Shown: piece by piece, positions 8,903 through 42,698 of the stretch
How the letters are laid out: every line of letters begins with the position of its first letter
Numbering within the stretch: the stretch's first letter is position 1
Assembly (NCBI RefSeq): GCF_039566955.1
Contig: NZ_CP154796.1
Span: 6,076,001-6,140,000 of the forward strand
Direction of reading: 5' to 3'
Length of the DNA: 64,000 nucleotides
Source: Micromonospora sp. DSM 45708
Lineage (GTDB): Bacteria; Actinomycetota; Actinomycetes; Mycobacteriales; Micromonosporaceae
Notes under the pieces: model-generated
Told to the model about the DNA's origin: nothing
Databases searched by the model: none
What the model saw: only the letters and a program-made list of their open reading frames with translations
Translations under genes and position numbers: made by a program

Positions 8903-9021
8903 CCCGTCCACGCCATCAAGTTCGTAGGCGCGGTAAGAGCACCAGCGACGGCGTTGCGCCCGGCGACCGCCCGGCCCGGCACCCGTGGTCGCGCACCAGC
9001 GGCTCCGCGTCGCACCGTCCG

Positions 9022-9879: not shown

Positions 9880-9982
9880 CGCCCACCCCCTCGCGAGCAG
9901 TAGGCCCCGACCCCACTCGCCCCGTCAACCGGATTCCCCCACCCGCGTCTTCCCAACGCGGAGCCGGGGCGGGGGCGGCGGG

Positions 9983-10699
9983 TCAGAGGCGACGGGTGTG
10001 GGGTGGGGCGGGGTGGGTGGGGTTGGCATGGATCACGAGGGTGGCGCGGGCGGCGAGCGGGGCGAGCAGCCACTTCAAAGGCTGCTCGTGTTCGGTCGGG
10101 TCGACCAGGAGGCGGTCGCCGGGGCGCAGGTCGAGCTGGGCGGCGATCTCCGCGGCCAGCCGCCGCCACGCGCCGAAGCTGGTGCCGTCCGGCGTGGCCG
10201 GGTCGGCCGGGTCCACGGCGGCGTAGTCCGGCGGGTCGGCGGGGTGCCGCAGCACCTCGGCCGACCAGTCCAGCCAGCCCGGCGGCACCTCGTCGAGCGC
10301 GCCGGAACGCACGCCGACCAGGTAGCGGTGGGTCCCCTCGGGGACGTCCTCCAGCCAGTCGTCCAGGCGTTCCGGGGTCACGAACACCGCGTCGAAGGGC
10401 CGGTCCGCGCCCGGCTCCAGCGTCGGCAGCCCGGCCAGCGCCCGGGGCCGGAAGGAGACCGTCAGCCCGACCGACCACGCGCCGAGCAGCACCGCCGCGG
10501 TGCGCCAGTGCGGCGGCAGCAGCACCGCCACCCGGTCACCGGGGCGCAGCCCGCAGCCGTCCCGCAGCAGCCCGGCGCTCCGGGCCGCCCACGCCCCCAG
10601 CTCCGGCGCGGTCAGGTCGGTGCGTTCGCCGGTGGCGTCGTCGAGATAACTGAGCAGCGGCTCGTCGGTCGCGACGGAAGCGGATGCGGATGCTGCCAT
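9983..10699 (-). CDS. TIGR03089 family (AMP-binding-like) protein
   Basis: A 238-aa actinobacterial protein resembling the N-terminal part of acyl-CoA synthetases: LTAPELGAWAARSAGLLRDG, then CGLRPGDRVAVLLPPHWRTA. The usual P-loop (YTSGTTG-type) and the C-terminal adenylation lid are absent, so it is probably not a full ligase. This is typical of the TIGR03089 family, whose function is unknown. The C-terminus LVIHANPTHPAPPHTRRL is followed by a G-rich intergenic stretch. Confidence 0.85.
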   Translation of the reverse strand: MAASASASVATDEPLLSYLDDATGERTDLTAPELGAWAARSAGLLRDGCGLRPGDRVAVLLPPHWRTAAVLLGAWSVGLTVSFRPRALAGLPTLEPGADRPFDAVFVTPERLDDWLEDVPEGTHRYLVGVRSGALDEVPPGWLDWSAEVLRHPADPPDYAAVDPADPATPDGTSFGAWRRLAAEIAAQLDLRPGDRLLVDPTEHEQPLKWLLAPLAARATLVIHANPTHPAPPHTRRL

Positions 10700-10857
10700 C
10701 GGATGTGCTCCTTCCGGGCGGTCGGCTCAGCCTAGCGGCACGAACCGGTCCCCCGGGAGCGCCGACAGACGGCCCGAAGCGGCCGTCGACTTTGGTCGCG
10801 GACGCCCTCGGCCGATGGCCGTATCGACGGGCCGGACGGCTGCGGCACGGTGCGGAC

Positions 10858-11934
10858 ATGACGACCGAACCCCTGCGCCGGCGACTCGCGCCGGCCGTCG
10901 CGCTGCTGCTGCTCGCGCCCTGGACCGCCGAGTGCTCCTGGGGCGGATTCACGCTCGCCGGCATGCCGTTCGTGGTGCTGGTGCTCGCCCCGATGTACGG
11001 CGGCGCCGCGCTGCTGATCCGGGAGACCGCCCGCCGGCTCGGGCTGGGCTGGCCGGGGATCGTGCTGCTCGCCGCCGCCTTCGGCGTGGTCCAGGCCGGT
11101 CTGGTCGACCAGTCGCTGTTCAACCCGGCCTACCTCGACGACACCCAGTTCGCCGACGCCCGCACCGTCGCCGAGGCGACGCTCGTGCCCGGCCTCGGGT
11201 TCAGCGCCCGGCAGGCGGTCGACTACGTGGGCAACCACGTGGCGTTGACCATCTGCGCGTCGATCGCGTTCGTCGAGTCGTACCTCGGGGCGGGTCGCCG
11301 GTCGCGGCCCTGGCTGGGTCGTCCGGGCCTGGTCGTGGCCGCGCTGATCTGGCTCGGCGGCAGCCTGCTGGTCTTCGCCGACGACGGTGGACGCAAGGGC
11401 TTCCTGGCCTCGCCGGTCCAGCTCACGTTCGCCGCCGGCGTGGCGCTGGTCCTGATCGCCGCCGCCCTGCTGCGCGTCGGCCGCGCCCCCGACGCACACA
11501 TCGGCGCGCCCGCCGACGCGTCCGTCGACCGGACCGCCATGGCCGCGCCACGGCCGGTCCGGCCGGGCCTGGTGGTGCTGGTCGCCTACGCCGGGGCCGG
11601 AGCCGTGGCGGGATGGACCGGGATCGGCGTCGCGCTCGCGCTCGCCGTGGTCACCGCCGTACTGCTGACACGGTGGTCCCGGCGGGCCGGCTGGGGGCAA
11701 CGCCACGTGCTCGCCGCCGGCTCGGCCGCCGTGGTCGTCGCGGCCGTCTTCGCGTACGGCGTGCCGACCTACACCCCGGCGGGCCCGGTGGCCGACCTGG
11801 TGGGCGACGTGGCGATCAGCGTGATCGTGCTGCTGCTGGTCGGTGGCGCGTGGTGGCGGGTCAGCGGGCGGGCAGCTCGGGACCGGCGTCGAGCAGCGGA
11901 GCCAGCAGGTCGCCCTGCTTCGCCACCCGCCTGA
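10858..11934 (+). CDS. Polytopic membrane protein, hypothetical
   Basis: A 358-aa integral membrane protein with about nine hydrophobic segments, starting at ATG 10858. Conserved-looking elements are APMYGGAALLIRETARRLG, FGVVQAGLVDQSLFNPAYLD and NHVALTICASIAFVE, seen in an uncharacterised actinobacterial membrane family. A Pro/Ala/Asp linker (about residues 215-235) splits the helices into two bundles. Its last 74 nt overlap, in antisense, the 3' end of the LigD polymerase gene. Function is unknown. Confidence 0.85.
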   Translation: MTTEPLRRRLAPAVALLLLAPWTAECSWGGFTLAGMPFVVLVLAPMYGGAALLIRETARRLGLGWPGIVLLAAAFGVVQAGLVDQSLFNPAYLDDTQFADARTVAEATLVPGLGFSARQAVDYVGNHVALTICASIAFVESYLGAGRRSRPWLGRPGLVVAALIWLGGSLLVFADDGGRKGFLASPVQLTFAAGVALVLIAAALLRVGRAPDAHIGAPADASVDRTAMAAPRPVRPGLVVLVAYAGAGAVAGWTGIGVALALAVVTAVLLTRWSRRAGWGQRHVLAAGSAAVVVAAVFAYGVPTYTPAGPVADLVGDVAISVIVLLLVGGAWWRVSGRAARDRRRAAEPAGRPASPPA

Positions 11935-12775: not shown

Positions 12776-13724
12776 CCTCGACCTCCTCGGGCGGCTTGTC
12801 CGGGCGCAGGCGCAGGACCCGGGGGAAGCGCAGCCGCCCGTCCGGGGTGCGTTGGCCGTACTTGACCTCCACCACCACCCGGGGTGATACCCAGATCGCG
12901 CCCCGCGCATCCTCGCGCGGCACGCCCCCGGCGAACGGCGACACGCCGGCACGCAGCGGCTCCAGCTCGCGCAGCAGCTCCCGTTCGATGGCCGCGCCGA
13001 TGCCGCCGCCGACCCGCCCCCGGTAGACCAACCGCCCGTCCGGGCCGGGCACGCCGACCAGCAGCCCGCCGACCCGGCGCGCGCCCGGCCGCCAACCGCC
13101 GACCACGAAGTCGCCGGTGACCTCCAGCTTGACCTTCACCCAGTCCGGCGAGCGCACCCCGGGCCGGTAGACCGAGTCGGCCCGTTTGGCCAGCACGCCC
13201 TCCAGCCCGTGCTCGCCGGCCGCCTCGTAGGTGGCCGGCCCGTCGGTGAAGACCGGCGGCACCGCCCACCGGGCGGCGCCGAGCCCGAGCGCCTCCAGCG
13301 CCGCCCGCCGCTCGTGCCACGGCCGGGCGGTCAGGTCCTCGCCGTCGAGCCGCAACAGGTCGAAGATCATGTACGTGACCGGCGCGGTCGCCGCCAGCCG
13401 GGCCGCCTTGGCCGGGTTGCGCACGTGCATCCGCTCGGCCAGCGCGGTGAACGACGGCTGCCCGTCCGTGAAGATCACCACCTCGCCGTCGAGCAGCGCG
13501 TCGTCGACCTGCTCGGCCAGGTTGAGCAGTTCCGGGTACGCGGTGGTGATCTCGACGCCGGAGCGGGCGTAGAAGTGCCGGTCGCCGTGGGAGATGTCGG
13601 CGAGCGCGCGGATGCCGTCCCACTTGAACTCGTACGCCCATGCGGCACCGGCCGGGAGCTGCCCGGTCATCGCGAGCATCGGCTTCAACGGCGCGCCGGA
13701 CACCATCTGACTGTAGTAGGGCAC
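12765..13724 (-). CDS. ATP-dependent DNA ligase, LigD ligase component
   Basis: A 319-aa ATP-dependent ligase for NHEJ. Motif I is EFKWDGIR near residue 32, with the adenylated Lys. Further motifs are LLDGEVV (III), EGVLAKR (IV) and WVKVKLE (V). A C-terminal OB fold follows (RPPDGRLRFPRVLRLR-like end). No nuclease or polymerase domain is fused, so LigD is split into two genes. The start is GTG 13724 or ATG 13706; neither has a strong ribosome binding site. It is divergent from ku, with a 66-bp shared promoter gap. Confidence 0.93.
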   Translation of the reverse strand: MPYYSQMVSGAPLKPMLAMTGQLPAGAAWAYEFKWDGIRALADISHGDRHFYARSGVEITTAYPELLNLAEQVDDALLDGEVVIFTDGQPSFTALAERMHVRNPAKAARLAATAPVTYMIFDLLRLDGEDLTARPWHERRAALEALGLGAARWAVPPVFTDGPATYEAAGEHGLEGVLAKRADSVYRPGVRSPDWVKVKLEVTGDFVVGGWRPGARRVGGLLVGVPGPDGRLVYRGRVGGGIGAAIERELLRELEPLRAGVSPFAGGVPREDARGAIWVSPRVVVEVKYGQRTPDGRLRFPRVLRLRPDKPPEEVEDAG

Positions 13725-13790
13725 GGAAGGGCGTGCGGCCCGTTCGATCGTTTGCGATTCTGGTCTTCAACCGGGGAGAGGAGCGCGGGT

Positions 13791-14789
13791 ATGCGGGCCA
13801 TCTGGAAAGGAGCGGTGTCGTTCGGCCTGGTGTCGATCGGGGTGAAGGTCTACTCGGCCACCGAGGAGAAGGACATCCGGTTTCATCAGGTGCACCGCGA
13901 GGACGGCGGCCGTATCCGTTACAAGCGCACCTGCTCGGTCTGCGGCGAGGAGGTCACCTACGACGACATCGCCAAGGGCTACGACCTCGGCGGCGGCGAA
14001 ATGGTCATCCTGACCGACGAGGACTTCGCCGAACTACCGCTGAGCACCTCGCACGCGATCGACGTGCTGGAGTTCGTGCCGGCCGAGCAGGTCGACCCGA
14101 TCCTCTACAACAAGGCCTACTTCCTGGAGCCGGAGGGCACCGCCACCAAGCCGTACGTGCTGCTGCGGGACGCGCTGACCGACTCGGAGCGGGTGGCGAT
14201 CGTCAAGGTGGCGCTGCGCCAGCGGGAGCAGTTGGCGACGCTGCGGGTCCGCGAGGGCGTGCTGCTGCTCAACACCATGCTCTGGCCGGACGAGATCCGG
14301 CAGCCCGACTTCGGCTTCCTGGACGAGGACCTGAAGGTCCGCCCGCCGGAGCTGGCGATGGCCAGCTCGTTGATCGACTCGATGGCCGGCGAGTTCGAGC
14401 CGGACGCCTTCACCGACGACTACCGGGCCGCGTTGCAGGAGGTCATCGACGCGAAGGTGGAGGGCCGCGAGGTGGTGCAGCCGGAGGAGGAAGAGGCCGC
14501 GCCGGCCGCGGCGGTGGACCTGATGGCCGCGTTGAAGGCGTCGGTCGAGCGGGCCCGGACGGCCCGGGGCGAGGCGCCGTCCGGCGGCGGGGCCGAGCCG
14601 ACTCCGATCTCGTCGGCCCGCTCCGCGAAGAAGGCCGCCGCGAAGAAGACCCCGGCCAAGAAGGCCGAGCCGGCGAAGAAGGCCACACCGGCGAAGAAGA
14701 CCGCCGCGAAGAAGACAGCGGCGAAGAAGGCCGAGCCGGCGAAGAAGACCGCCGCCAAGAAGACCGCCGCGAAGAAGAAGACCGCCTGA
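13791..14789 (+). CDS. ku: Ku DNA end-binding protein with Lys/Ala-rich tail
   Basis: A 332-aa bacterial Ku, the DNA-end clamp that recruits LigD. It begins MRAIWKGAVSFGLVSIGVKV, the family's hallmark, and includes RIRYKRTCSVCGEEV and FLEPEGTATKPYVLLRDAL. The last ~65 residues are a run of AKK/TPAKKA repeats resembling histone H1 tails. Such basic C-terminal extensions in actinobacterial Ku proteins add DNA affinity. ATG at 13791 follows GGGGAGAGG. It is divergent from the ligase/polymerase operon, completing a two-component NHEJ locus. Confidence 0.96.
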   Translation: MRAIWKGAVSFGLVSIGVKVYSATEEKDIRFHQVHREDGGRIRYKRTCSVCGEEVTYDDIAKGYDLGGGEMVILTDEDFAELPLSTSHAIDVLEFVPAEQVDPILYNKAYFLEPEGTATKPYVLLRDALTDSERVAIVKVALRQREQLATLRVREGVLLLNTMLWPDEIRQPDFGFLDEDLKVRPPELAMASSLIDSMAGEFEPDAFTDDYRAALQEVIDAKVEGREVVQPEEEEAAPAAAVDLMAALKASVERARTARGEAPSGGGAEPTPISSARSAKKAAAKKTPAKKAEPAKKATPAKKTAAKKTAAKKAEPAKKTAAKKTAAKKKTA

Positions 14790-14801
14790 GGGGTACGGCG
14801 A

Positions 14802-14837
14802 GGGCCCCGCCCGACGTGTTCGGTGTGGGCGGGGCCC
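14802..14837. terminator. Hairpin between ku and the convergent oxidoreductase gene
   Basis: A perfect 11-bp stem (14802-14812 with 14827-14837) and a 14-nt loop, located between two converging stop codons. It probably terminates both transcripts. Confidence 0.75.
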
Positions 14838-14844
14838 CCGTTCG

Positions 14845-15237
14845 TCACCCGCGGCCGAGCTTCTCCGTCGGGGTGACGCGGACGATGACCCGCTCCTCGC
14901 CCGCGCGGCGCCACGGGTAGGTGTCCTGGCCGAGATACTTCTTCGCCATCCGGTCGATGTGCTCGTCGGCACCCTCGGTGACGAACTCGACAGTGCCCTT
15001 CACCCAGAGCGTGCGGTAGTCGTCCGCCTTGTCCACCACCGACACCGCGACCACCGGGTTGCGGGCCATGTTGAGGTACTTCTGCCGGCCCTTGGCGGTG
15101 TTGAACACGATGTGCTTCCCGTCGGTGTCCACCCACACCGGGGTGACGTGCGGGGTGCCGTCGGCCTCGATCGTGGCCACGTGCGCGAGCTGCGGCTCGC
15201 CGAGCAGGGTCAGGTCTTCTTCGGTGAGGATCGCCAT
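14845..15237 (-). CDS. PPOX-class F420/FMN-dependent oxidoreductase
   Basis: A 130-aa split-barrel flavin/deazaflavin oxidoreductase. It starts MAILTEEDLTLLGEPQLAHV and has HVTPVWVDTDGKHIVFNT and GRQKYLNMARNPVVAVSV, the cofactor-binding segments of the PPOX family. The size is normal for single-domain members. The substrate cannot be read from sequence. ATG at 15237 is preferred over a longer frame to 15399, which lacks domain similarity. Confidence 0.88.
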   Translation of the reverse strand: MAILTEEDLTLLGEPQLAHVATIEADGTPHVTPVWVDTDGKHIVFNTAKGRQKYLNMARNPVVAVSVVDKADDYRTLWVKGTVEFVTEGADEHIDRMAKKYLGQDTYPWRRAGEERVIVRVTPTEKLGRG

Positions 15238-15425
15238 GTTCGAGAACGTACCCGCTCGGTGTCCGCTCCGGCCCGGGGTGTGAAGAACGAGCCCCGCCCA
15301 TACCGAATGCGTTAAGAAGGGCCCCGGCCTTTCGTCGCTGTGGGGGTGCGGGCGGGTACCGTGTGCGCTGGCCTCGGCGGCGGCCCGCCGGGGGCGCACC
15401 CACCCCCCATTTGCAGGGAGTCGAC

Positions 15426-16097
15426 GTGAGCGAGCGTGTGGAGAACCGGTCGGAGGACCAGGCCGCCCCGGCCACCAAGGCCGGGCGGCGGCTGGCCGCC
15501 CAGCTGGCCGAGAAGAAGGCCGCCGAGGCGCGACGGCGCCGGCAGTCGATGCTGGGCGCAGCAGCCGGTGTGCTCGCCGTGGTGGCCCTGGTCGGTGGTC
15601 TCGTCTGGCTGAACAGCGGGGACGACGACAAGCCGGCCGCCGCCGGCTCCTCGGCCAGCCCCAGCGCCCCGAGCGAGCCGGTCGAGCCCACCGCGCCGCC
15701 CGCGCCGGAGCTGCCCGCCAACATCGACCCGGCGCTGAAGACCAAGCCGGCGGTCAAGGCCGGCTCCGGCGAGCTGAAGAAGCTGACCGTCACCACGCTG
15801 GTCAAGGGCAAGGGAGCGGCGGTGAAGGCCGGGCAGACGATCACCACGAACTACGTGGGCGTCTTCTACAAGGACGGGAAGCAGTTCGACGCGTCCTGGG
15901 ACAACGGCCAGCCGGCCACCTTCCAGATCGGCGTGGGGCAGGTCATCAAGGGTTGGGACCAGGGCCTGGTCGGCGTGCCGGTGGGCAGCCGCGTGCAGCT
16001 CGACCTCCCGGCCGACCTGGCGTACGGCGACAAGGCCGAGGGCGGCCGTCCGGCCGGGCCGCTGCGCTTCGTCGTCGACGTGCTGGCTGCGCAGTAG
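15426..16097 (+). CDS. Membrane-anchored FKBP-type peptidyl-prolyl isomerase
   Basis: A 223-aa protein. A Lys/Arg-rich cytoplasmic N-terminus is followed by one transmembrane helix (about residues 42-60, LGAAAGVLAVVALVGGLVWL), an extracytoplasmic Ser/Pro/Glu linker, and a C-terminal FKBP domain (about 118-223). That domain shows NYVGVFYKDGKQFDASWDNG, VIKGWDQGLVG and DLAYGDKAEGG. It assists folding of exported proteins. GTG at 15426 follows GCAGGGA. A strong hairpin lies downstream. Confidence 0.94.
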   Translation: MSERVENRSEDQAAPATKAGRRLAAQLAEKKAAEARRRRQSMLGAAAGVLAVVALVGGLVWLNSGDDDKPAAAGSSASPSAPSEPVEPTAPPAPELPANIDPALKTKPAVKAGSGELKKLTVTTLVKGKGAAVKAGQTITTNYVGVFYKDGKQFDASWDNGQPATFQIGVGQVIKGWDQGLVGVPVGSRVQLDLPADLAYGDKAEGGRPAGPLRFVVDVLAAQ

Positions 16098-32164: not shown

Positions 32165-32997
32165 GTGGACACCCTAGCGGTGGCGAGGCGGCACGACTTG
32201 ACCGACGCACAGTGGGTGGCGCTGAAGCCGTTGCTGCCTGTGGGGCGTCGGCCAGGTCGGCCGTCGACATGGACGGAACGGCAGCTCATTGATGGGATCC
32301 GGTGGCGGACCCGGGTCGGTGCCCCGTGGCGGGATGTTCCGCAGTGCTACGGATCCTGGGCCGCGGCGTATGGGCTGTTCCGGCGTTGGCAGCGTGACGG
32401 GACGTGGGCGAAGATCCTGACCGTGTTGCAGGCCCTGGCTGACGCGGCCGGACGTGTGGTCTGGGATGTGTCGGTGGACTCGACGGTCGCCCGGGCGCAC
32501 CAGCACGCCGCTGGGGCGCGTAAAAGGGGGATCTGCAGGCCGAGCCGCCGGGCGGGGTCGCGGTCGAGCCGACCGATCACGCGCTCGGTCGGTCGCGGGG
32601 TGGGCTGACCACGAAGCTGCACCTGGCCTGTGAGCAGGGGCAGAAGCCGTTGTCGATCGTGTTGACCGCTGGGCAGCGCGGGGACAGCCCGCAGTTCAGG
32701 GCCGTGCTCGACGGCATCCGGGTGCCTCGCTTGGGCTCGGGTCGGCCCCGGACTCGCCCTGACCGGGTCTTGGCCGACAAGGCGTACACGTCGAAGGCCG
32801 ACCAAGACGCCAACCGGAGAAAGCTGGGGTCCAAGGGCGGCCGACCACCGGCCTTCGACCCCGAGCGGTACAAGCAGCGTCACGCCGTGGAGTGCGGCAT
32901 TAACCGGCTCAAGGGCAACCGGGCCGTAGCGACCCGGTTCGACAAACTCGCCGTCCGCTACGAAGCCACCGTTCACATCGCCGCGATCAACGAGTGA
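32165..32997 (+). pseudogene. IS5-family DDE transposase in two frames with an internal deletion
   Basis: The first frame (from GTG 32165 or 32180, to 32608) encodes ARRHDLTDAQWVALKPLLPV and the first catalytic Asp (WDVSVDSTVARAHQ). The second (open from 32524 to 32997) encodes [20 protein letters not shown], the second Asp ([12 protein letters not shown]) and the Glu region ([12 protein letters not shown]). The frames meet at AAAAGGGGG (32522-32530), where a -1 shift joins them; this could be programmed frameshifting or a mutation. From my knowledge of the family, about 18 residues are missing after DKAYTSKA, apparently an in-frame deletion between short AAGGCC repeats. It is probably inactive. 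Confidence 0.82.
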
Positions 32998-33231: not shown

Positions 33232-34377
33232 TTAGAATGGCTCGCAGCGCATCAAGTTCGCGCCTACCAGGACGGCACGCTTCCAGCCGGCGTGCATGGT
33301 CTGGCTCACTGGCTTGTTGCCGGGCGGCTCGGTGGCGGTCGGGTCGATGCCGTAACCGGACTGCCAGCCGTCGACCGCCGCCGCCAGCGTCGCCGAAGTG
33401 GTTGCTGCGGCGGCCCGCATCGGCGGCAGTGCCTCCGCCTGCGCCGCAATTAGTCCGTCGCCCACACAGCCGTCGTGCTGGCTCATCGCGAAACCGATGG
33501 CTTCTCGTTGCCGGGCGTCATCAGTCAGCCAACTGACGGCCACGACCGCACCCGTGGCGGTCGGGATGACGGATCCACCCCGGAAACGAGCACCGGCGAT
33601 ACGCCCAACTTCTGCGAGGGGGCCTCGCTCGTGCACCATGACCCGCGCCGCGAGCCACGCCGTCTCGGCGTCGGTCGCGGGAAGCGGAATGCCCGCGTAG
33701 ACCCGGCCATCCTGGGCGGTTAGGCCAGCGCGTGAACCGCCGGTTGCCGAAAGCGAGGAGACGGTGCTACGGGCGGCGAGACCTTCCAACAACTGCTGCC
33801 ACTCTTGCGCCGATGACGGACCCGCTACCACAATCTGCCGGGGCCACAGAAGCTCCGCGCATTTGGCATGGCGGAGTAAATCTTCTGGCGTCAGACGAGC
33901 ACTGTCACCCGGCCGGCACTCGTCGAACCGGCCCAGTTTGGGCCGCCGGGCGGCGAGTGCCGCAAGTTTGTGACCCGCGACCAGCAGCGGGCTGCCAAAC
34001 CACTCGGCCAGTTCGACGTCAATTGCCCGGCATTCCCGCTGCCGCATCTGCTCAGCCACCGGCGAGGAGGCCAGCCAGTGGGCCGTTGTGGCCAATGCCT
34101 GGACCAACTGCCGCTCCGCTCCGGCCCGGACGGTCACCGTAATTCGCATCGACTCGGCGTGGGTCTGTGCGTGTGCCACCAGTGGTTCGTGCACCACCGT
34201 GCGCAGGGTTGCTAGAAACAGATGCTCGTGCAGGTGGGCGACGCCCGGTGTGATCGCGGGATCGTCGCCGAAGCCCCGCCCATACGTCGCCACCAGCGAG
34301 GTGGTCGGCGACCCGGGCCGGTACACGGCGATCACTTGGCACTCGCCCTCGGAAAACCGCCAGACTTCACCAGTCAT
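33232..34377 (-). CDS. M16 (insulinase-like) zinc peptidase, putative leader peptidase
   Basis: A 381-aa M16-fold protein with an intact inverted zinc motif HLHEH (HxxEH, residues 48-52) and a candidate distal Glu at 122 (AIDVELAEW), so it should be the catalytic member of a pair. No signal peptide is present, hence cytoplasmic. ATG 34377 overlaps the previous gene by 11 nt. It is last in the putative peptide operon, and the 3' end abuts a transposase relic, so the C-terminus may be altered. PqqF-like and related M16 pairs process ribosomal peptide precursors, and that is the inferred role here. Confidence 0.82.
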   Translation of the reverse strand: MTGEVWRFSEGECQVIAVYRPGSPTTSLVATYGRGFGDDPAITPGVAHLHEHLFLATLRTVVHEPLVAHAQTHAESMRITVTVRAGAERQLVQALATTAHWLASSPVAEQMRQRECRAIDVELAEWFGSPLLVAGHKLAALAARRPKLGRFDECRPGDSARLTPEDLLRHAKCAELLWPRQIVVAGPSSAQEWQQLLEGLAARSTVSSLSATGGSRAGLTAQDGRVYAGIPLPATDAETAWLAARVMVHERGPLAEVGRIAGARFRGGSVIPTATGAVVAVSWLTDDARQREAIGFAMSQHDGCVGDGLIAAQAEALPPMRAAAATTSATLAAAVDGWQSGYGIDPTATEPPGNKPVSQTMHAGWKRAVLVGANLMRCEPF

Positions 34378-35305
34378 GCAGGGCAGCTCGCATCTCTGTC
34401 ACAGTCTGCTCTCGAAGTCGTCCAACTACTGCAACCGCTGGTGCCCCCGTCGCGGGAGTCGGCCCATTGCCGAGTTGGTCGAAAGGGCCAGTCGACGGGT
34501 GGATCGCCTCGTGGAGCGCGGCGCTCGCTTGCAGGAACGGCAGTCGGTAAGCGGGAATGTAGAGGGTGCGCAACACTTCGCGGACCGTCTCCAGCAGCGC
34601 CACCACATGCTCGGCTGTGGTGCTCAGACCCAAGCCGAGACAGGGCGTCGCGTGTTCCCACACGGGTGCTGCCGCCGCGGCGTAGTACGGCACCTGCCGC
34701 TGCGCGAGCGTGCTGACCAGCGCTCCGGGTGCACCCACCCGACCCAGATGCGAGGCGACGACGCCCACGTCGAGCGGCCCGGGCCACGGCACCCGCACGC
34801 CCACGGTCAGGCGCTGTTGGTTGCCCACTCCGTAGTAAAGGCCTCCGCGCCAGTCGAGCGGGTCGGGCGGTGAATCCCGGACACCCCCGTCGCGTACGCA
34901 ATCGGCAATTTCCCGCGCCCGGCACAGGATCTGCTCGTCGGTTAACGCCATGGCCATTGTCGGGGAGGGTAGGTCGTCCACACATGCCTCGCCCCAGGCC
35001 GCGAGGTGAATAGCGCGCTCTGCCTGCCAGACGCGGTCACCCAACAGTTGAGTTCGCCGCGCGGCTAGCATACGCCGGAGCGCAGCAAGCGCACCCCTAT
35101 CCGGCAGCGATACGTCCACCGTGATCACCGACCGGCGATGCCCGACGCGGAAGTTCTCCGGGCCGGCCAAAGCAGCGCAGGCTAGAGCGGTGAGGCCGGA
35201 CTCCCCGGGCGCCTCGGTAGCTTTGCCCCAGGGGACCCACACAGTCGGGCGGCGTGCGGGCTGCTCTACGGCGAAGCGGCCCAGCAGACTAAGCACCGTC
35301 GTCAC
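34367..35305 (-). CDS. M16 peptidase-like partner subunit lacking the zinc motif
   Basis: A 312-aa protein with M16-like alpha/beta character (HRRSVITVDVSLPDRGALAA, RRMLAARRTQLLGDRVWQAE) but no HxxEH motif. M16 enzymes often work as a catalytic plus a non-catalytic subunit, and this gene overlaps the catalytic one by 11 nt. It begins at GTG 35305, overlapping the exporter gene by 17 nt. Family assignment rests on fold-like pattern and pairing, so it is less certain than for its neighbour. Confidence 0.65.
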   Translation of the reverse strand: MTTVLSLLGRFAVEQPARRPTVWVPWGKATEAPGESGLTALACAALAGPENFRVGHRRSVITVDVSLPDRGALAALRRMLAARRTQLLGDRVWQAERAIHLAAWGEACVDDLPSPTMAMALTDEQILCRAREIADCVRDGGVRDSPPDPLDWRGGLYYGVGNQQRLTVGVRVPWPGPLDVGVVASHLGRVGAPGALVSTLAQRQVPYYAAAAAPVWEHATPCLGLGLSTTAEHVVALLETVREVLRTLYIPAYRLPFLQASAALHEAIHPSTGPFDQLGNGPTPATGAPAVAVVGRLREQTVTEMRAALHDW

Positions 35306-36545
35306 GGGTTCTCCCTAACAGGGTGCGAGCCAGCAGCGACGTGGTGATCACCAGGTTCGTTGCCCCGGCGAGCATTAGGATCAACACCGGATGGTGGGTT
35401 ATGTCAGCGATCAGCGGCACGGTGACGTAGGACACCGTCATGAGCAGGTTCAGCACAGCCCGGCGGAAGGCGAAAACCCGGCCGATAACCGCGTTGTCGG
35501 TCAGCGTCTGGTAGACCACCGTGGCCGCACCGGCAATCATCACGTTGCCGGCCCCGCCGAGTAGCCCTACCACCACGACGGCGACCCAACTCCATCCGTG
35601 GCCATTGAGCACGAGCATGGCCGCAGCCACCGCTGACAGGGCGGCTCCGAGCCACACAGTCCATGCCGGCCGGGTAGACCGGCGTACGAAGATGTACGAC
35701 CCTGCGATCCAGCCCAAGCCGGACAGGGTCTGGTAGACGGCCGCCGCCGCAATACCGATCGACTCCTCGAAGACCGCTAGTGCGACGACGACCTCCGAAC
35801 CCAGGAACAGAAAATACGACGCCTCGGCGACGGCGACCCGGCGCAGTCGCGCATCGATGCTCCGCCAACGCACCGGCTCCAGCCTGCTAGATATCCCGTC
35901 TCCGCTGGTTGAAGGCGCGGTGCGGGACACCTCTGCCCGGGAGGGGCGCAGCAACGTACCCAGCAGACCGGCCACGACGAACGAGCCGAGGTTCACCCAC
36001 AGCGCCACCTCAATGCCCAGGCCCGCAGAGAGCGCCGCGCCGATGAGCGGCCCGAGGCTCAACGCAGTGCCAAAGGCAATCTCGAACAGGGCGATGACCG
36101 GACGGATTGCCTCCGGATCGAGCCGTTCCTTTAGGAGTGCCTGCGCAGCCGGGACGGAGACGCTTCCGACTGCCTTGAGCAATCCCACCAGGAGGTAGAC
36201 AGCCGTGAGGTTCTCGGCGCGGACCGCGAATACCAGGGCTATCACTAGCAGAGCGCAGACCAGTTCGCAGACGACGAACACCCACCGCCGGTTCCAGCGG
36301 TCGACGATACGCCCGGCGACTGGCGCACAGAAGACGACCGGCAGCGTCCCGACGGCGAAGGCGATGCCGGTGGCGGTGTAAGAACCGGTCACCGACAGCA
36401 CCCAAAGCGGCAGGGCCAGATTTTGGACGTAGTTGCCGATCAGCGAACAGGCGTTGGCGAGGAGCAGGATGCGCCACGCCTGCCAGGGCCCGGCCATCCG
36501 TTCCGGCGCCTCGGCCGTGGAGACTGTCGAGCTGTCAGTGACCAC
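35289..36545 (-). CDS. MFS exporter of the putative peptide cluster
   Basis: A 418-aa major facilitator with 12 predicted helices, resembling MFS_3/enterobactin-exporter-like proteins. NYVQNLALPLWVLSVTGSYT is at TM1 and AGRIVDRWNRRWVFVV (motif A) follows. The middle loop is at about residues 205-230. GTG 36545 overlaps the CYTH-like gene by 11 nt, and its stop overlaps the M16-partner start. Its place inside the operon suggests export of the mature product or self-protection. Confidence 0.88.
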   Translation of the reverse strand: MVTDSSTVSTAEAPERMAGPWQAWRILLLANACSLIGNYVQNLALPLWVLSVTGSYTATGIAFAVGTLPVVFCAPVAGRIVDRWNRRWVFVVCELVCALLVIALVFAVRAENLTAVYLLVGLLKAVGSVSVPAAQALLKERLDPEAIRPVIALFEIAFGTALSLGPLIGAALSAGLGIEVALWVNLGSFVVAGLLGTLLRPSRAEVSRTAPSTSGDGISSRLEPVRWRSIDARLRRVAVAEASYFLFLGSEVVVALAVFEESIGIAAAAVYQTLSGLGWIAGSYIFVRRSTRPAWTVWLGAALSAVAAAMLVLNGHGWSWVAVVVVGLLGGAGNVMIAGAATVVYQTLTDNAVIGRVFAFRRAVLNLLMTVSYVTVPLIADITHHPVLILMLAGATNLVITTSLLARTLLGRTRDDGA

Positions 36546-37251
36546 GTTGCGAACCCCAGCCAAGGTGGGTGGCGGCGATCTGCGGTTTGGTGGTGTCCGC
36601 GGGCGCCCGTCCGACCAACGCGGAGAACTTCCCGGCGACCCGCGACAAAAGGTCAAGGTTGGCACGGCTGGCCTGGTTCACTTCCAACTCCAGGATGGCG
36701 AATGTATTGACCAGTCGAGAGCACGCGTCGCGCAACTCAACGGCGTCGCAGCTGAGGGCAAGGACCGCATTGTCATCGGTCCGCAACGTGGCCTTGGTGC
36801 GCCGCTGGGACAGATAGCCGAAGACGCTCAACCCGCAAAGGCCACTTGCTCGGCGGGCCAGATACTGCCCCGGCCGGGAGGCGATCAGGTCCGCGCCGGA
36901 GAGGGCCACGAGATCAGCGACATACTCAGTCAGCTCAAGAACGTCGCGGCGGCCGTCAACCCACTGTACGGTCTCCTTCGCTACCAGCCAGGACGGTCCC
37001 GCCCCGCGGTTGACCAGTGCGGTTAGAGAGCAGCCGACGGACGTCAGAGACCAGTCCGGGCTGTCGAAGCAGAGGGTGTGCTGCGAAATCCTCGCTTGCT
37101 CGTGGAGCCGCAGCCCGGAGGCCTGGATCAGCTGCTCCCGCAATTCCTCGCTCGCTTCCGGCGCGGCCAGAGCGCCCTTGCCCAGGTGCCACCGGTATTC
37201 GTGCTCCACGCCCACCCGTGGTACACGCAGGACCTGTTCCGTCACTGTCAC
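36535..37251 (-). CDS. CYTH-like (triphosphate tunnel fold) protein
   Basis: A ~238-aa protein that I read as CYTH-like. VGVEHEYRWHL holds an ExExR (ExExK-like) motif at about residues 16-20. Next come FDSPDWSLTSVGCSLTALVN, where CYTH proteins have yyDTxxxxLxxxGxxLR, and a Lys-bearing strand (LVAKETV). A late AILELEVN carries the paired Glu. CYTH enzymes act on triphosphates with metal ions (ThiT-ase, class IV adenylate cyclase). GTG 37251 follows GGGAGG; ATG 37278 is an alternative. It may modify or energise peptide maturation; that is conjecture. Confidence 0.6.
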   Translation of the reverse strand: MTVTEQVLRVPRVGVEHEYRWHLGKGALAAPEASEELREQLIQASGLRLHEQARISQHTLCFDSPDWSLTSVGCSLTALVNRGAGPSWLVAKETVQWVDGRRDVLELTEYVADLVALSGADLIASRPGQYLARRASGLCGLSVFGYLSQRRTKATLRTDDNAVLALSCDAVELRDACSRLVNTFAILELEVNQASRANLDLLSRVAGKFSALVGRAPADTTKPQIAATHLGWGSQRGH

Positions 37252-37342
37252 TGCTGAGCCTCCCTCGTCACCTGCCATGCCCTTCCCGCCCTCGCCTACG
37301 AACAGGCGCGACGCCGCGGCCCGCACAACTCGGTGCAGACGG

Positions 37343-38116
37343 TCACGAGGTTGCCCCCGCCAGGCGATGGGTAAATCCCGAATACTCCACGTCCGAAAGA
37401 CCGCCCACAGTGAAAACGTCGATCCGCTCGGCTGGCACATCGAAGAGCCGCTCGCACACCCGTCGGACGACGGCACCGGTCGAGGGCGGCGGCCGGAAGT
37501 GCCCGGACTTGGTGTTGGCCACGATTGCGAAGACGCGCGGGGCACCGATCAGCACAATCTCGCCCGCAGCGCGGACTCGCAGGCGATCCGGTACCAGCAT
37601 CGGGTGCGCCACGGGCACGCCCACGACCTTCGACTTGGCCCGGCCGAAGATTAACTCCCGAAAGGTGAATCGGCGGCGCCAGATGAGCAAACGATCTTCG
37701 TCGTCGATGACGAACATGTGCGGAGCACCGGAGACAATGCCCTCCGGCAGCTCGGCCGCACCGACCTTCCAGATCTGCTCGACCGCAGTGCGCGCGGCAC
37801 CGGCGTAACGTTCGTCGAACACCTTCCGGTCGAATTGGATGACCAGCGGATCCTCGTTTATCACTCGAGTCGGGTGATCGTGCCGCACTGCCAACTCCCG
37901 CGAGTACGCCTCGCGAAGCGCCTCGCCAACCTCGGCGATCCGGCCAGCGAGCGTGGGACGCGGATCCATCGTCAGCTCCGCGTGCCGTAGCCGGACTAGT
38001 TCCTCGTACTTGAGGAAGACCACCGCTTGGGAAAACGGGCCGTACTTGACCGCCGCCCGGCGGGCTGCGGCCCGCAAGCGGTCCGCCTCGGTGAGGTAGT
38101 CGGGTTCGGCAGCCAT
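37343..38116 (-). CDS. SGHFRP-motif protein, first gene after the putative precursor
   Basis: A 257-aa cytoplasmic protein. The C-terminal half has HMFVIDDEDRLLIWRRRFTF, then HPMLVPDRLRVRAAGEIVLI and NTKSGHFRPPP. This order (H...AGEI...N+SGHY+P) recalls a domain known from plant IQM proteins and bacterial relatives, in which SGHYxP is the signature. The N-terminal ~100 residues are helical and Arg/Glu-rich (FLKYEELVRLRHAELTMDPR). ATG 38116 has GGGAG upstream. It directly follows the precursor and hairpin, so I infer a maturation role. No enzymatic activity can be assigned. Confidence 0.6.
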   Translation of the reverse strand: MAAEPDYLTEADRLRAAARRAAVKYGPFSQAVVFLKYEELVRLRHAELTMDPRPTLAGRIAEVGEALREAYSRELAVRHDHPTRVINEDPLVIQFDRKVFDERYAGAARTAVEQIWKVGAAELPEGIVSGAPHMFVIDDEDRLLIWRRRFTFRELIFGRAKSKVVGVPVAHPMLVPDRLRVRAAGEIVLIGAPRVFAIVANTKSGHFRPPPSTGAVVRRVCERLFDVPAERIDVFTVGGLSDVEYSGFTHRLAGATS

Positions 38117-38140
38117 CGGCGGGTCTCCCTCGCAAGTAGG

Positions 38141-38168
38141 GGCGCTCGGCCCGTATGGGCCGAGCGCC
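38141..38168 (-). terminator. Attenuator-like hairpin between precursor and biosynthetic genes
   Basis: A perfect 12-bp stem (38141-38152 with 38157-38168) and a 4-nt loop (GTAT on the plus strand) lie 26 bp after the precursor stop and 24 bp before the next start. Partial termination here would keep precursor mRNA in excess over enzyme mRNA, as in many ribosomal peptide operons. Confidence 0.7.
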
Positions 38169-38194
38169 TCGTCATACTTTGATCCGGCCGTGGA

Positions 38195-38299
38195 TCAGTA
38201 CCAGGTCTCACCGGCCTGCACCGAGGCCAGCGCGTCCAGGCCCTCCTCGGTCTCCTCGAGCGCCTCGATAACCTCGATGATTTCGACGACCTGTTCCAT
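38195..38299 (-). CDS. Putative ribosomal precursor peptide, 34 aa
   Basis: A short ORF with ATG 38299 and a strong ribosome binding site (GGGAGAG, 6 nt upstream), ending TGA at 38195. It starts MEQVVEIIEVIEAL, is very Glu-rich and amphipathic through the leader-like part, and ends LASVQAGETWY. It has no Cys, one Ser and two Thr, so a lanthipeptide is unlikely. A plausible core is the C-terminal 5-10 residues; Trp-Tyr at the C-terminus is notable. Position between a SARP gene and the biosynthetic operon, behind SARP-type repeats and before an attenuator, supports the call. Confidence 0.75.
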   Translation of the reverse strand: MEQVVEIIEVIEALEETEEGLDALASVQAGETWY

Positions 38300-38413
38300 G
38301 GCATCTCTCCCTTGATCATGGACCGGAGGATTCCTCCAGGACGTCCCCGGCCCGGCGCTGTACCGCCCCGTTCGGTTCGGCAGCTAAAGCTTGCAGGAAC
38401 GCTGCACTGCGCC

Positions 38414-38432
38414 TTCATCCGACTTTCATCCG
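38414..38432 (-). promoter_or_regulatory. SARP-type direct repeats upstream of the precursor gene
   Basis: On the minus strand CGGATGAA occurs twice with exactly 11-bp periodicity (38425-38432 and 38414-38421). SARP regulators bind heptameric direct repeats at 11-bp spacing, usually just upstream of the -10. The repeats lie 115-133 bp before the precursor ATG and immediately after the SARP gene's stop. The spacing rule is established; binding here is inferred. Confidence 0.6.
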
Positions 38433-38436
38433 CCCG

Positions 38437-41265
38437 CTATCGGCTTGCCGTGCGCGAAAGGCGATCGGCGGCGAACTCGCCCATCAGCCGCGTCATCGCC
38501 GCCTCACCCGCCACGTCGTTGTTCTGCCGATACACTTCCTGTGCCTTGCGGAACCAATCGGCGGCACCGTCGCGGTCGCCGGACCCCAGTACCGCGTGGC
38601 CGACGCGGCTGAGCGTTGTGGCCTCGGCCGTGCGGAACCCGGAGCGCCGCATCAGGGCAAGGCCCTCGTGCAGGTACTCCAGGGCCTTCGCATACTCGCC
38701 GTGGCGCAGGAACAACGCACCAACACTGCTCAGGATCGCCGCTTCGTGGTGGCGCAGGCCACCGTCGCGGGCAAGTTCCCGCCCGGCTTCCAGTCGCCGC
38801 AACGCGGCGTCACTGCCGCCGAGGGCAACCAGGATGTCCGCCGAATTGTTGAGCGCGTGCACCTCAAGAGTAGTGTTGCGCGCCGCGCGAGCGAGGTTAA
38901 GCGCACCTTCGGTTTCCTCCAGCGCGTCCTGGTACTTGCCTTGGGCGTCGAGACCGGCGCCGATGCCGAGCCGCGCGCCCGCAGCGCCCGCGAGGTCGCC
39001 CGCCCGCTCGTACAGCACGGCTGAGAGGTACAGGCTGTCCAGAGCGGCCTCGGGCTCGTTCGTGACGCCTAACGCGCCGCCTAGCGCGTGGTGCAGATGG
39101 GCGAGCAGGCGAGGTTCCCCGATCCGCCCGCTCTGCTGCTCGCATTCCCGCCAGGCGGCCACGATTGCATTCGGAAAGCCAGAGCGGATGAAATAACTGT
39201 GCAGGTAGTACACGAGTTCCACGGCACCCTCGATGCGGTGCCGGACGGCAAGGAGCACCACCGGGGCGAGATTATCTCGTTCGGCATTGAAAAACTTGAT
39301 CGCCTCGATGTCCTTGGTGAATGGCTGGACGAACGGGTTGGTGCCGGCTGCCGGTGGACCGAAGGCGTCGCGGTCCGGCCGCAAAACGCCGTTTGCCCGG
39401 GCCGCCAGCGCCAGGTACCACGCCAGCAGGCGGCATGCGGCCTCCTGCCGGCTTGCCGGCTCCTCGGCAAGGCGCTCCGCCGCGTATGAGCGAATAAGAT
39501 CGTGCATGGTGAGGTATCCGTCGCCGCCGTCGGCGAGCAGGTGCAGTGCGATGAGGCTGTTCGCGGCGGCCTGGGCCCGCGGCAGCGGCACGGCGGCCAG
39601 CGCGGCAGCGGCTTCGCGTCGGATCCGTCGTCCGGGGTGGACGGCGAGCAACCGCAGCAGCCGCGCCTCCTCCGGTGAGAGGGCCGCGTACACGTTCGCC
39701 AGGACAGATCGGACGCTGCGCGCGTCACCGTCGATCGTGAACCCATCGAGTGACGCGTTGTGGTGCGGGAGGCCGGTGGCGAGTTCCTCGATGGTCAACG
39801 CCGACTCTGACAGGAGCCGCGCTGCGAGGATCCGCAGGGCAAGCGGCATCCCTCCGCAAAGGTCGAGAAGGCTCTCGAGCGCGGGGCTGGAGGCTTGCGG
39901 CGCCAAGCCGGCGGCCTCGGTCAGTAAGGTTCGGCTGACCGGCCGGCTGAGCCCGTCCAGCGCGATCATCTTGACGGCGACGTGAGCGTGCAAGGCAGCT
40001 TGCGTGTTACGGCTCGTGACGATCAGTTGCGAGCCACCCGCTGTTGGCACCGCCGGGAGCACCTGCTCGATGCTGCCCGCGTTATCGAGCACGATTAGAA
40101 GCTTCTTGTCCGCAGTTATCGACCGGTATAGAGCGATCTGCTTTTCCAGCGCCCCGGGAATCGTGTTCGCTGGCAGGTTTAAGCTTTCCAGCAGGTGTGC
40201 CAGCACGCCGGTGGGTGGGCGGTTGGTCGCCGCGCTGTGCGCGCCGAGGTCGAGGAACAGGTGGCCGTCGGGGAAGCGGTCGCCGACCTGATGCGCCGCC
40301 TGCACGGCAAGCGAGGTCTTACCCATGCCCGCCCCGCCGACGATGACAATCACTTGGGCTTGCCCGCAGTGCCCGACCACGGCCTCCAATTCCTTCCCAC
40401 GGCCGGTGAAGTGACCGTCTGCCGGGGGTATCTGACGCGGTATCCGCGGGTACGGATCCACGGGAGCGGCCGGGTGCGCGACCGCCATGGTTTCGTGCAC
40501 AGCCGGCCCAAGTAGTGTGAGGTCGCTATGCAAGATCCGTTGGTGCAGCTGGCGCAACTCCGGCCCTGGGTCGATGCCCAGTTCGGTGGAGAGCAGGGCC
40601 CGCGTTTTCTGGTAGGTGATCAGGGCGTCGCTCTGCCGGCCGGAGCGGTAGAGAGCGACCATCAGCAGCCCAGTCAGCTGCTCTCGGAACGGAAATTCGG
40701 CGACTAGCGCGGCCATCTCGGCGATCACCCGGCCGTGCAGCCCCGCCTGGAGTTCCAGCCGCATGCAGTCCTCCCAGGCGGCGGGGCGCTCCTCATCGAG
40801 CAGCAGTGCGTGCTCGCGGATGAACCGACTGTCGACGCTCGCGAAGGCCGGTGCCCGCCACAGGGCCAGCGCTTGCCGCAGTGTCCTGGCCGCGCCGCGC
40901 AGCTCACCTGTCTCGATGATCGCTGCCGCGTCGGCGACCATACCGCGGAACTGGTAGAGGTCGATCTGGTCGCGGTCAATGTCTAGGACATAGCCCGCCC
41001 GGGCCGTCCGCAGCACCTGCCTCGCCTCGGTGACTCCGGCGCCCAGCCACACCTGGCGCAGTTGCGAGGCCGTGTTCTGGACCTGGCGCTCCGCCGACGC
41101 TGGAGGGTCCCCATCCCATAGGGTCTCCGCCAGCGCTCCGATGGAGACGAGCGTGTGTGGGCTCAGTAGCAGCCGCGCGAGGAACCTCTGCTGTCGCGGT
41201 CGCAAAGGCGGTAGCCGAAGCCCGGCCTCCCAAACCTCAAGGTCACCGAGCAAGCAAAACTTCAT
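38437..41265 (-). CDS. AfsR/SARP-family pathway regulator with NB-ARC and TPR domains
   Basis: A 942-aa regulator. Residues 1-95 are an OmpR-like winged helix (MKFCLLGDLEVW start). Residues 98-245 are the BTAD domain (VDSRFIREHALLLDEERPAA). The P-loop is GGAGMGKTS at 310-318 with a Walker B-like KLLIVLDN; an NB-ARC module runs to ~620. The C-terminal ~300 residues are TPR repeats (ALDSLYLSAVLYERAGDLAG). This is the architecture of large SARPs that activate secondary-metabolite clusters. It lies 39 bp after the MBL gene and 137 bp before the precursor, on the same strand. Confidence 0.95.
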   Translation of the reverse strand: MKFCLLGDLEVWEAGLRLPPLRPRQQRFLARLLLSPHTLVSIGALAETLWDGDPPASAERQVQNTASQLRQVWLGAGVTEARQVLRTARAGYVLDIDRDQIDLYQFRGMVADAAAIIETGELRGAARTLRQALALWRAPAFASVDSRFIREHALLLDEERPAAWEDCMRLELQAGLHGRVIAEMAALVAEFPFREQLTGLLMVALYRSGRQSDALITYQKTRALLSTELGIDPGPELRQLHQRILHSDLTLLGPAVHETMAVAHPAAPVDPYPRIPRQIPPADGHFTGRGKELEAVVGHCGQAQVIVIVGGAGMGKTSLAVQAAHQVGDRFPDGHLFLDLGAHSAATNRPPTGVLAHLLESLNLPANTIPGALEKQIALYRSITADKKLLIVLDNAGSIEQVLPAVPTAGGSQLIVTSRNTQAALHAHVAVKMIALDGLSRPVSRTLLTEAAGLAPQASSPALESLLDLCGGMPLALRILAARLLSESALTIEELATGLPHHNASLDGFTIDGDARSVRSVLANVYAALSPEEARLLRLLAVHPGRRIRREAAAALAAVPLPRAQAAANSLIALHLLADGGDGYLTMHDLIRSYAAERLAEEPASRQEAACRLLAWYLALAARANGVLRPDRDAFGPPAAGTNPFVQPFTKDIEAIKFFNAERDNLAPVVLLAVRHRIEGAVELVYYLHSYFIRSGFPNAIVAAWRECEQQSGRIGEPRLLAHLHHALGGALGVTNEPEAALDSLYLSAVLYERAGDLAGAAGARLGIGAGLDAQGKYQDALEETEGALNLARAARNTTLEVHALNNSADILVALGGSDAALRRLEAGRELARDGGLRHHEAAILSSVGALFLRHGEYAKALEYLHEGLALMRRSGFRTAEATTLSRVGHAVLGSGDRDGAADWFRKAQEVYRQNNDVAGEAAMTRLMGEFAADRLSRTASR

Positions 41266-41304
41266 CTCTGAGCTCCCCGTCGATTCCCGCTACGCGCAGG
41301 ATGG

Positions 41305-41949
41305 TCACCAGCCGCGTGAGCGCCACTCCGGCAGCGCCGGCCGCTCGGCACCGAGCGTGGTGTCGCGGCCATGTCCCGGGTAGACCCATGTCTCGTCCGG
41401 CAGCACACCGAAGATCCTTATCTCTACGTCCCCCAGGAGCGAGGAGAACGCCTCTGCGTCACCGAACGTATTCCCCACACCGCCTGGGAACAGCGAGTCA
41501 CCCGTGAACAGGTGCGGGTTGCCCGCAAGATCGTCGTAGAGCAGAGCGACGCCGCCTGGAGTGTGTCCAGTAAGCCGGATCACGCGCAGCTTCGCCTCAC
41601 CGCATCGAATAATGTCACCGTGAGTGAGAGCGACGTCTGTGGGCACGTCGATTCCCGCGACGTCCGGCTCACCGGCGTACGTGCGAGCGCCGGTGGCCTC
41701 GACCACCTGGGGAAGTGCACGTTGCCAATGGTCCCAGTGCCGGTGCGTCGTCACGACACCGGCGAGTTGGTGATCGCACAACTCGAGCAGAGTCAGCGGC
41801 TCCGCGGCCGCGTCGATCAGCACCTGCTCGCCGGTCGATCGGCACCGCAGAAGGTAACAGTTGTTGTCGCCGCGGCCCACGGACACCTTGCTGATGGTCA
41901 GTCCGTCCAACTCACGCACCCCCGGGGCGACACCTGTATATTCGTCCAC
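41305..41949 (-). CDS. MBL-fold metallo-hydrolase (glyoxalase II-like)
   Basis: A 214-aa metallo-beta-lactamase fold protein. The zinc motif is THRHWDH (HxHxDH) near residue 70. Further ligands are in LTGHTPGGVALLYDD and LFTGDSLFPGGVGNTFGDAE, and the C-terminal His is in WVYPGHGRDTTLG. It resembles hydroxyacylglutathione hydrolase-like enzymes. The start is GTG 41949 with a weak ribosome binding site. Same strand and close spacing to the SARP gene suggest membership in the peptide cluster. Confidence 0.92.
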   Translation of the reverse strand: MDEYTGVAPGVRELDGLTISKVSVGRGDNNCYLLRCRSTGEQVLIDAAAEPLTLLELCDHQLAGVVTTHRHWDHWQRALPQVVEATGARTYAGEPDVAGIDVPTDVALTHGDIIRCGEAKLRVIRLTGHTPGGVALLYDDLAGNPHLFTGDSLFPGGVGNTFGDAEAFSSLLGDVEIRIFGVLPDETWVYPGHGRDTTLGAERPALPEWRSRGW

Positions 41950-41962
41950 GTCGCTAATACTC

Positions 41963-42166
41963 TCATGATCGCCATTGCGGATCGGCGACGGTGGGCAGCA
42001 AGTCCGCCTCGGGCAAGGACCAGACAGTGTGTTGCCAGTCGAGCCAGACAGGCCACCAACCGGCCGATGGGCACGGACAGTAACGATTCTGACGCGTCGC
42101 TCGAACGCCCTGCGGCAGATCCGTGCGTCGAAGGAAAAACAGCCAGTAGGGTTTCGGGATGCTCAC
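41963..42166 (-). CDS. Small aromatic-rich ORF, hypothetical
   Basis: A 67-codon frame from GTG 42166 to TGA 41963, 13 bp upstream of the MBL gene on the same strand. It is unusually rich in Trp and Pro: PYWLFFLRRTDLP, then RYCPCPSAGWWPVWLDWQH and VWSLPEADLLPTVADPQW. Such composition is unlike noise from an overlapping frame, and it overlaps its divergent neighbour by only 8 nt. The CPCP pair could bind metal. No strong ribosome binding site is seen and I recognise no family. Confidence 0.45.
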   Translation of the reverse strand: MSIPKPYWLFFLRRTDLPQGVRATRQNRYCPCPSAGWWPVWLDWQHTVWSLPEADLLPTVADPQWRS

Positions 42167-42698
42167 TGGAGTGATCGTCCCCGGGCTCGGTTACGGTCCG
42201 CAAGCGCCGCTACTCAACCTTGCCAACGAGGCACTGGCCGACCTCGACGCCACCATCGAGACCATCACGTGGGCCGTTCCCGACGGCCTCATTGATATCG
42301 GCCCGGAGCCATTTGTCAGAGCACACGTCGCGGCCGCGCTACACCGGCTCGGCACGGCAACGCCAGGGCCAAAGCCCGTGATCATCGCCAAGTCGCTCGG
42401 CACCCACGCCGCTGCACTGGCTGCCGAACGGCAGCTTCCCGCTATCTGGCTGACGCCGCTGTTAAATGACCACGCCGTCGCCGAGGCGATCACTCACAAC
42501 CCCGCACCGGCCCTGCTCGTCGGCGGTACGCGCGACTCGAGCTGGATCTCCGAAACCGCGGCGAGAACTGGGAAAACGGTAGTCACCGTCGACAGCGCCA
42601 ACCATGCCCTGCGGCCGCCCGGATCACTTCGTGCCTACACCGATGCCCTTGGCGCCATCGCTACCGCCATGGAACAGTTTCTCTCCCGACTGAGCTGA
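42159..42698 (+). CDS. Small alpha/beta-hydrolase-like protein
   Basis: A 179-aa alpha/beta-hydrolase fold without an obvious lid. It begins MLTGVIVPGLGYGPQAPLLN. The nucleophile is in IAKSLGTHAAAL (Ser near residue 79). The acid is likely in GGTRDSSW and the catalytic His in SANHALRP. ATG 42159 follows GTAGGG. It is divergent from the small aromatic-rich ORF and lies inside the island. Codon use is less G+C-rich than in the flanks. Substrate is unknown. Confidence 0.8.
   Translation: MLTGVIVPGLGYGPQAPLLNLANEALADLDATIETITWAVPDGLIDIGPEPFVRAHVAAALHRLGTATPGPKPVIIAKSLGTHAAALAAERQLPAIWLTPLLNDHAVAEAITHNPAPALLVGGTRDSSWISETAARTGKTVVTVDSANHALRPPGSLRAYTDALGAIATAMEQFLSRLS

Follow-up and report, generated by a model that had tools for sequence, protein, structure and literature searches.

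The window, a stretch of 64,000 nt on contig NZ_CP154796.1 and part of the 7.0-Mb single-contig genome of Micromonospora sp. DSM 45708, carries on its minus strand, from position 41949 down to 33232, genes for a metallo-beta-lactamase-fold hydrolase (MBL), a SARP regulator, a peptide of 34 amino acids (aa), a protein that we call SGH, a CYTH-like protein, an MFS exporter and two M16-like proteins, M16a and M16b (Table 1). The original prediction saw a ribosomal peptide locus in this cassette, and every element it described was located as claimed on that strand. The reading is supported by the conservation of the precursor gene and of the order of its neighbours, and neither of the two outcomes given in the original prediction as refuting it was seen. 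It is very probable that the cassette is a biosynthetic cluster of the ribosomally synthesized and post-translationally modified peptide (RiPP) class, likely a new class, with presumably a modified peptide as its product. Pfam and NCBIfam gave names only to the MBL, SARP and MFS proteins of the window cassette. The junctions MFS/CYTH, M16a/MFS and M16b/M16a overlap, and 64 nt separate the SGH stop from the CYTH start (taking the first CYTH ATG), a junction that is a 4-nt overlap in L001, L002 and L023 (L numbers denote related loci).

Table 1. Positions of the cassette features within the window.
Feature	Position	Strand	Basis or remark
Metallo-beta-lactamase-fold hydrolase (MBL)	41305..41949	-	Pfam/NCBIfam; 6/17 loci
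SARP-type regulator (BTAD, NB-ARC, TPR)	38437..41265	-	Pfam/NCBIfam; 10/17 loci, a partial match in L036 uncounted
Ribosome binding site of the precursor, AAGGGAGAG	38305..38313	-	Sequence, ahead of ATG
Precursor peptide gene, 34 aa	38195..38299	-	Acidic leader, then QAGE-TWY; the invariant Ser/Thr is T32
12-bp perfect G+C hairpin in the precursor/enzyme gap	38141..38168	-	Folding; putative attenuator or transcript-stabilising role
SGH protein	37343..38116	-	N-terminal three-helix bundle and alpha/beta domain; no curated family
CYTH / triphosphate-tunnel-fold protein	36535..37278	-	E25xE27xR29 at N-terminus
MFS exporter	35289..36545	-	Pfam
M16-like subunit (M16a), without HxxEH	34367..35305	-	Motif and profile comparison
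M16-like subunit (M16b), with HLHEH zinc motif	33232..34377	-	Motif and profile comparison
HLHEH (HxxEH) of the catalytic M16 subunit	34222..34236	-	Motif

The search for relatives gave 64 SGH homologues at E<=1e-3 among 8000 scored candidates, the window's own included, and 18 neighbourhoods were read (the window, L001-L003, L023-L033, L036, L041 and L042). All except L042 are canonical. The precursor was found in 17/17 of these loci, and so were SGH and CYTH, the most constant part, when gene content was scored by tblastn (E<=1e-4). The same genes in the same order are kept in genomes with largely different flanks. The window clade includes L001 and L002 (Streptomyces) and L023 and L041 (from the family of the window), with identities to the window of about 70-73% in SGH, 62-66% in CYTH, 69-75% in MFS, 63-65% in SARP and 48-55% in the M16 pair. 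An SGH profile matched 1/394 genomes of the class (the window's own only) and 7/250 of the family, 7/394 in the family of Streptomyces CB00316 (4 full length, 3 partial), and 3/249 in the family of Amycolatopsis oliviviridis and 4/160 of the genus; these sets overlap, the query genomes are among them, and with scoring limited to a few candidates in each genome more distant members may escape detection. Overall the cassette is rare and patchy, yet spread across families of actinomycetes, and horizontal transfer is likely.

The 34-aa open reading frame (ORF) is more than a chance occurrence, because the peptide is conserved and its gene varies chiefly at third codon positions (the 34 codons of eight close copies show 7, 5 and 16 variable sites at first, second and third positions). 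As had been claimed, it is rich in glutamate (9 of the 34 residues) and preceded by a ribosome binding site. Family ORFs led by such a site lie upstream of SGH in 14 of 15 loci, the precursor of the fifteenth, L003, being identified by profile, and a leave-locus-out profile search recovered the peptide in 15/15 (each of 14 loci was omitted once, L003 had no part in the profile at any time, and near relatives mostly stayed in the training set). A profile built without any of the four window-clade loci still recovered the window peptide at E 2.6e-6, compared with 0.48 for the best among 8284 reversed-DNA segments over all rounds. A profile of 17 precursor sequences further revealed two precursors in L036 and another two in L041, neither of which had contributed to it (the copies of L041 are nearly those of L023). 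None of eight scanned precursors matched NCBIfam.

When 21 distinct precursors of 16 loci were aligned (identical copies and those of L041 were omitted), the leader proved better conserved than the core, with G30 and L34 in 21/21, Q38 in 20/21 and A39 in 19/21. Column 42, within the core, is Ser or Thr in every precursor (12 Thr, 9 Ser), preceded by a variable residue (F, E, S, T, V or A), and judged from the alignment this invariant residue is the strongest new clue to the chemistry. The window-clade core is tiny, GETWx with a variable last residue, and cores in other clades are of up to 15 residues. Tandem precursor copies carry differing cores. Cys is absent from the 21 aligned precursors, leaving no residue to form (methyl)lanthionine, their cores are free of Lys and Arg, and one core in L030 has no acidic residue. 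The cassette has one hallmark of a RiPP cluster: a conserved short precursor gene with a constant leader and a variable core, and adjoining enzymes. In L029, four near-identical tandem precursor genes lie upstream of SGH at a spacing of about 212 nt, and in L030 (5128-5313) and L036 (14472-14627) the cluster has at its far end another precursor, adjoining a JmjC protein.

The attenuator hairpin of the original prediction is present as a hairpin (perfect over 12 bp, fold z -4.2); no T run follows it, and its role as an attenuator is a matter of interpretation. In 16 loci (L041 and L042 left out), the 75 nt after the last precursor before SGH folded with z between -1.4 and -6.1, at or below -2.4 in 14 and weaker in L030 (-1.8) and L032 (-1.4); in loci with a short gap the folded stretch may enter the SGH gene. 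Values after six upstream tandem copies were +1.2, +0.9, +0.3, -1.5, -1.5 and -1.7, and +0.8 after the second precursor of L036. The pattern suits a leaky terminator or a stabiliser.

The CYTH-like label was upheld by fold comparison of the homologue P0067, which has the triphosphate tunnel fold at 14% identity to its best fold match. Both Glu of the N-terminal ExEx are invariant in 25 rows (two of them identical), and ExEx is followed by Arg in the window clade, whereas divergent members, among them L003, L024 and L025, have Lys there. Only three of 25 members were listed for PF01928, all below the curated cut-off (best E 0.046, 14.0 bits vs 23.2). SGH has an alpha/beta domain with the motif HPML..AGE..N.KSGHF and no curated family in Pfam or NCBIfam. 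A domain with this motif also forms the C-terminus, the usual place of a toxin domain, of RHS proteins carrying a type VII secretion system (T7SS) signal in L034 (2287-6735) and L035 (6558-11015); for L034 its homology to SGH was shown (hhalign E 4.4e-9). No Pfam model covers this RHS-borne domain, nor does NCBIfam in L034. Two unnamed viral predicted proteins (BFVD G8DGH9 and E5EQ39) match the SGH model at E 4e-5 and 3.6e-4.

A putative leader protease and exporter are co-encoded, the M16 pair in 16/17 loci and MFS in 16/17. HxxEH occurs in 16/16 M16b and 0/16 M16a, the heteromeric pattern of M16B peptidases. The window-clade proteins have no Pfam match, and their assignment to M16 was borne out by the HLHEH of one subunit and by matches to the profiles of the other loci (hhalign E 1.5e-11 for M16a and 1.6e-14 for M16b, the latter profile made of 8 of the 11 other M16b); the M16 proteins of L026 match Pfam M16. 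In M16B peptidases the partner subunit has an R/Y substrate-binding pair (PMC8960859). Given the precedent for M16B cleavage at Q-A-(A/V)-(D/E), a cut after QAxx would put the Ser/Thr at the product N-terminus, the predicted products being TWY, TWS, THPDDV, SDIAL, SPGEHGELG, TDG and the like.

Other genes vary among the loci. MBL is probably accessory, as only six of the 17 have it. P450 genes occur in four (L003, L024, L032, L033), GNAT in three (L025, L028 and L031, on the other strand in L028; weak remote matches in L029 and L036 are uncounted), and JmjC (L030, L036) and a formyl-transferase-C protein (L026, L027) in two each. In L032 a LanL-like synthetase (638 bits vs a cut-off of 650; 1/17) lies directly after the M16 pair at 13265-15784, and the precursor of that locus has no Cys. 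L032 is also the sole MFS-less locus; its opposite strand carries two genes (5625-9091) that resemble each other, have lengths of 577-578 aa and are guessed to be an ABC transporter pair. In L042, from the same genus as the window (SGH E 1.5e-21), a 38-aa ORF, a CYTH-like protein, a B12-binding radical SAM protein, SGH and MFS stand in a row at 6817-11028; the CYTH-like protein gave no tblastn match with five canonical CYTH queries. The claim that no known maturase is present thus holds for the window cassette and fails for the family, given the LanL-like enzyme, the P450s and the radical SAM protein of the distant L042. L036, a public plasmid, has the order 47-aa hypothetical, SGH, CYTH, MFS, insulinase family, M16, 51-aa second precursor and cupin (JmjC), and its record annotates both precursors, SGH, CYTH and the M16 next to the insulinase-family protein all as 'hypothetical protein'. 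The scanned flank proteins of the window look unrelated (AT3/SGNH acyltransferase, PNPOx-like, DUF2231, one sub-threshold phosphoesterase match and one without match). Directly beyond the M16 end lies an IS4/5-type transposase in two pieces (32165-32997), and at 42159-42698 on the plus strand a 179-aa ORF that is hydrolase-like by eye, with no Pfam match, has relatives near the cassette in L002, L023 and L026.

The anatomy of the cassette and its retention among the loci, the invariant Ser/Thr, the fold of CYTH and the M16 pairing are observed; beyond these, we propose that the SARP regulator would turn the cassette on and that the hairpin behind the precursor would keep the peptide in excess over the enzymes. 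The acidic helical leader may be bound by the enzymes, perhaps via the SGH helix bundle; CYTH would transfer a phosphoryl (or nucleotidyl) group from a nucleoside triphosphate (NTP) onto the invariant core Ser/Thr, and SGH would finish the modification, possibly by phosphate elimination to a dehydro-residue. The M16 heterodimer would then cleave the leader near QAxx, immediately ahead of the modified residue, and MFS would export a short peptide, approximately Thr*-Trp-Tyr here and up to about a dozen residues elsewhere, which P450, JmjC or GNAT enzymes may decorate in some genomes. A dehydrated N-terminal residue could convert to a ketoacyl end. The Ser/Thr is probably the modified residue, and we lean slightly towards CYTH using a triphosphate on the peptide; dehydration by SGH is doubtful. 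The whole mechanism, from activation by CYTH and completion by SGH to cutting and export, has about an even chance of being right. The same holds for its central statement: in a new RiPP class, CYTH would be a peptide-activating enzyme that works with SGH on one invariant Ser/Thr, and this residue would end up as the first of a very short exported product. Going by the literature searched, CYTH would then be the first protein of the tunnel fold to act on a peptide.

Several observations weigh against this mechanism. One of the strand 3 arginine pair of triphosphate tunnel metalloenzymes (TTM), Arg-52 of AtTTM3, is critical for hydrolysis. Read by eye, the window (SLTAL) and most relatives lack this pair (RxR), a single arginine being retained only in L003, L024, L033 and L026, and therefore CYTH could have altered or weak catalysis. 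Leader column 27 is likewise Ser/Thr in 21/21 precursors, so that an invariant Ser/Thr need not mean modification. The SGH fold search gave 0/378 at E<=1e-3, and no match fixes its chemistry. The M16 pair is absent from L027 and MFS from L032. L032 keeps CYTH and SGH next to its LanL-like dehydratase/cyclase, which makes a dehydratase role of the pair partly redundant; Ser/Thr chemistry thus fits the family, yet CYTH and SGH may act otherwise. In L042 the precursor profile finds no peptide beside SGH and the CYTH-like protein, only the other 38-aa ORF. More tentatively than the other claims, the pair may be a module that serves peptides of more than one type.

Among other explanations, each of them improbable, the one that survives best takes the peptide as a reusable scaffold whose C-terminus is extended or modified and from which a small molecule is cut off, as in pearlins. 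The tiny window-clade cores with their variable end and the better conserved leader speak for it, but the scanned proteins, part of the genes of the 17 loci, include no PEARL-type enzyme, the differing cores of tandem copies point to product variants, and the cores of other clades are longer. Marginally less probable is that CYTH and SGH use NTP within the same RiPP cluster to activate the backbone amide before the Ser/Thr, giving an oxazoline or methyloxazoline, a YcaO-like outcome from new folds. This needs NTP use, which is plausible, and the invariant Ser/Thr, which is seen; the unconstrained preceding residue neither helps nor rules it out, and the conserved genes include no dehydrogenase. 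On a par with it is an unmodified signalling peptide, cut by M16 and exported by MFS, with CYTH and SGH acting elsewhere in immunity or nucleotide signalling. Precursor, peptidase, exporter and SARP would suffice for this, and the SGH domain also occurs in the RHS proteins, but the SGH-CYTH pair varies least of all parts, and enzymes of tailoring type accompany it. A toxin-antitoxin or contact-toxin relic, with SGH as toxin and the peptide as inhibitor, is very unlikely despite the RHS homology, as it has no place for the M16 pair, exporter, SARP, tandem peptides and invariant core Ser/Thr, and PADLOC gave no match for SGH, CYTH, MFS or M16. We found no non-RiPP reading covering together the constant leader and variable core, the copy number, hairpin, protease pair, exporter and changing tailoring enzymes in which the cassette resembles RiPP clusters.

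No description of the cassette was found in the open-access literature, among the matches listed, and the same holds for reports of CYTH or SGH proteins in peptide maturation and for papers naming 'CYTH domain' or 'triphosphate tunnel metalloenzyme' together with 'RiPP'. Mining with known maturases would miss such clusters. Should CYTH indeed activate the peptide, peptide chemistry would be added to a fold known from enzymes that hydrolyse or cyclise triphosphates. The chemistry is a well-posed question, and the small size of the precursor, SGH, CYTH and M16 genes would allow direct reconstitution.

Compared with known systems, a lanthipeptide of any class was rejected for the absence of Cys from the 21 aligned precursors, and graspetide-like ester or amide crosslinking since no window protein matched ATP-grasp and one L030 core has no acid. 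The class III lanthipeptides with M16B pairs (PttP1/PttP2) share with the cassette a heteromeric M16 with one HxxEH subunit, a QA motif before the core and several precursors per cluster, whereas 16/17 cassette loci have no LanL/LanKC relative by tblastn. Class V lanthipeptides (kinase LanK, lyase LanY) likewise have two separate small proteins beside the precursor and a core Ser/Thr, and the pristinin cluster of this class includes an M16 protease; by Pfam, however, CYTH is not an APH-type kinase and SGH not HopA1-like, and eight scanned window proteins gave no match to PF01636 (APH-like LanK) or HopA1 (LanY). In pearlins a very short variable C-terminal tail is borne on a conserved peptide, a likeness to the cassette precursor, but no PEARL enzyme is among the proteins scanned from the cassette loci. 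With the CYTH/TTM enzymes (ygiF, AtTTM3, ThTPase, CyaB, Vtc4) the cassette protein has in common the tunnel fold, ExExK/R and ExE; it differs in its low identity and mostly lost strand 3 arginines, and in adjoining a peptide gene in 17/17 loci.
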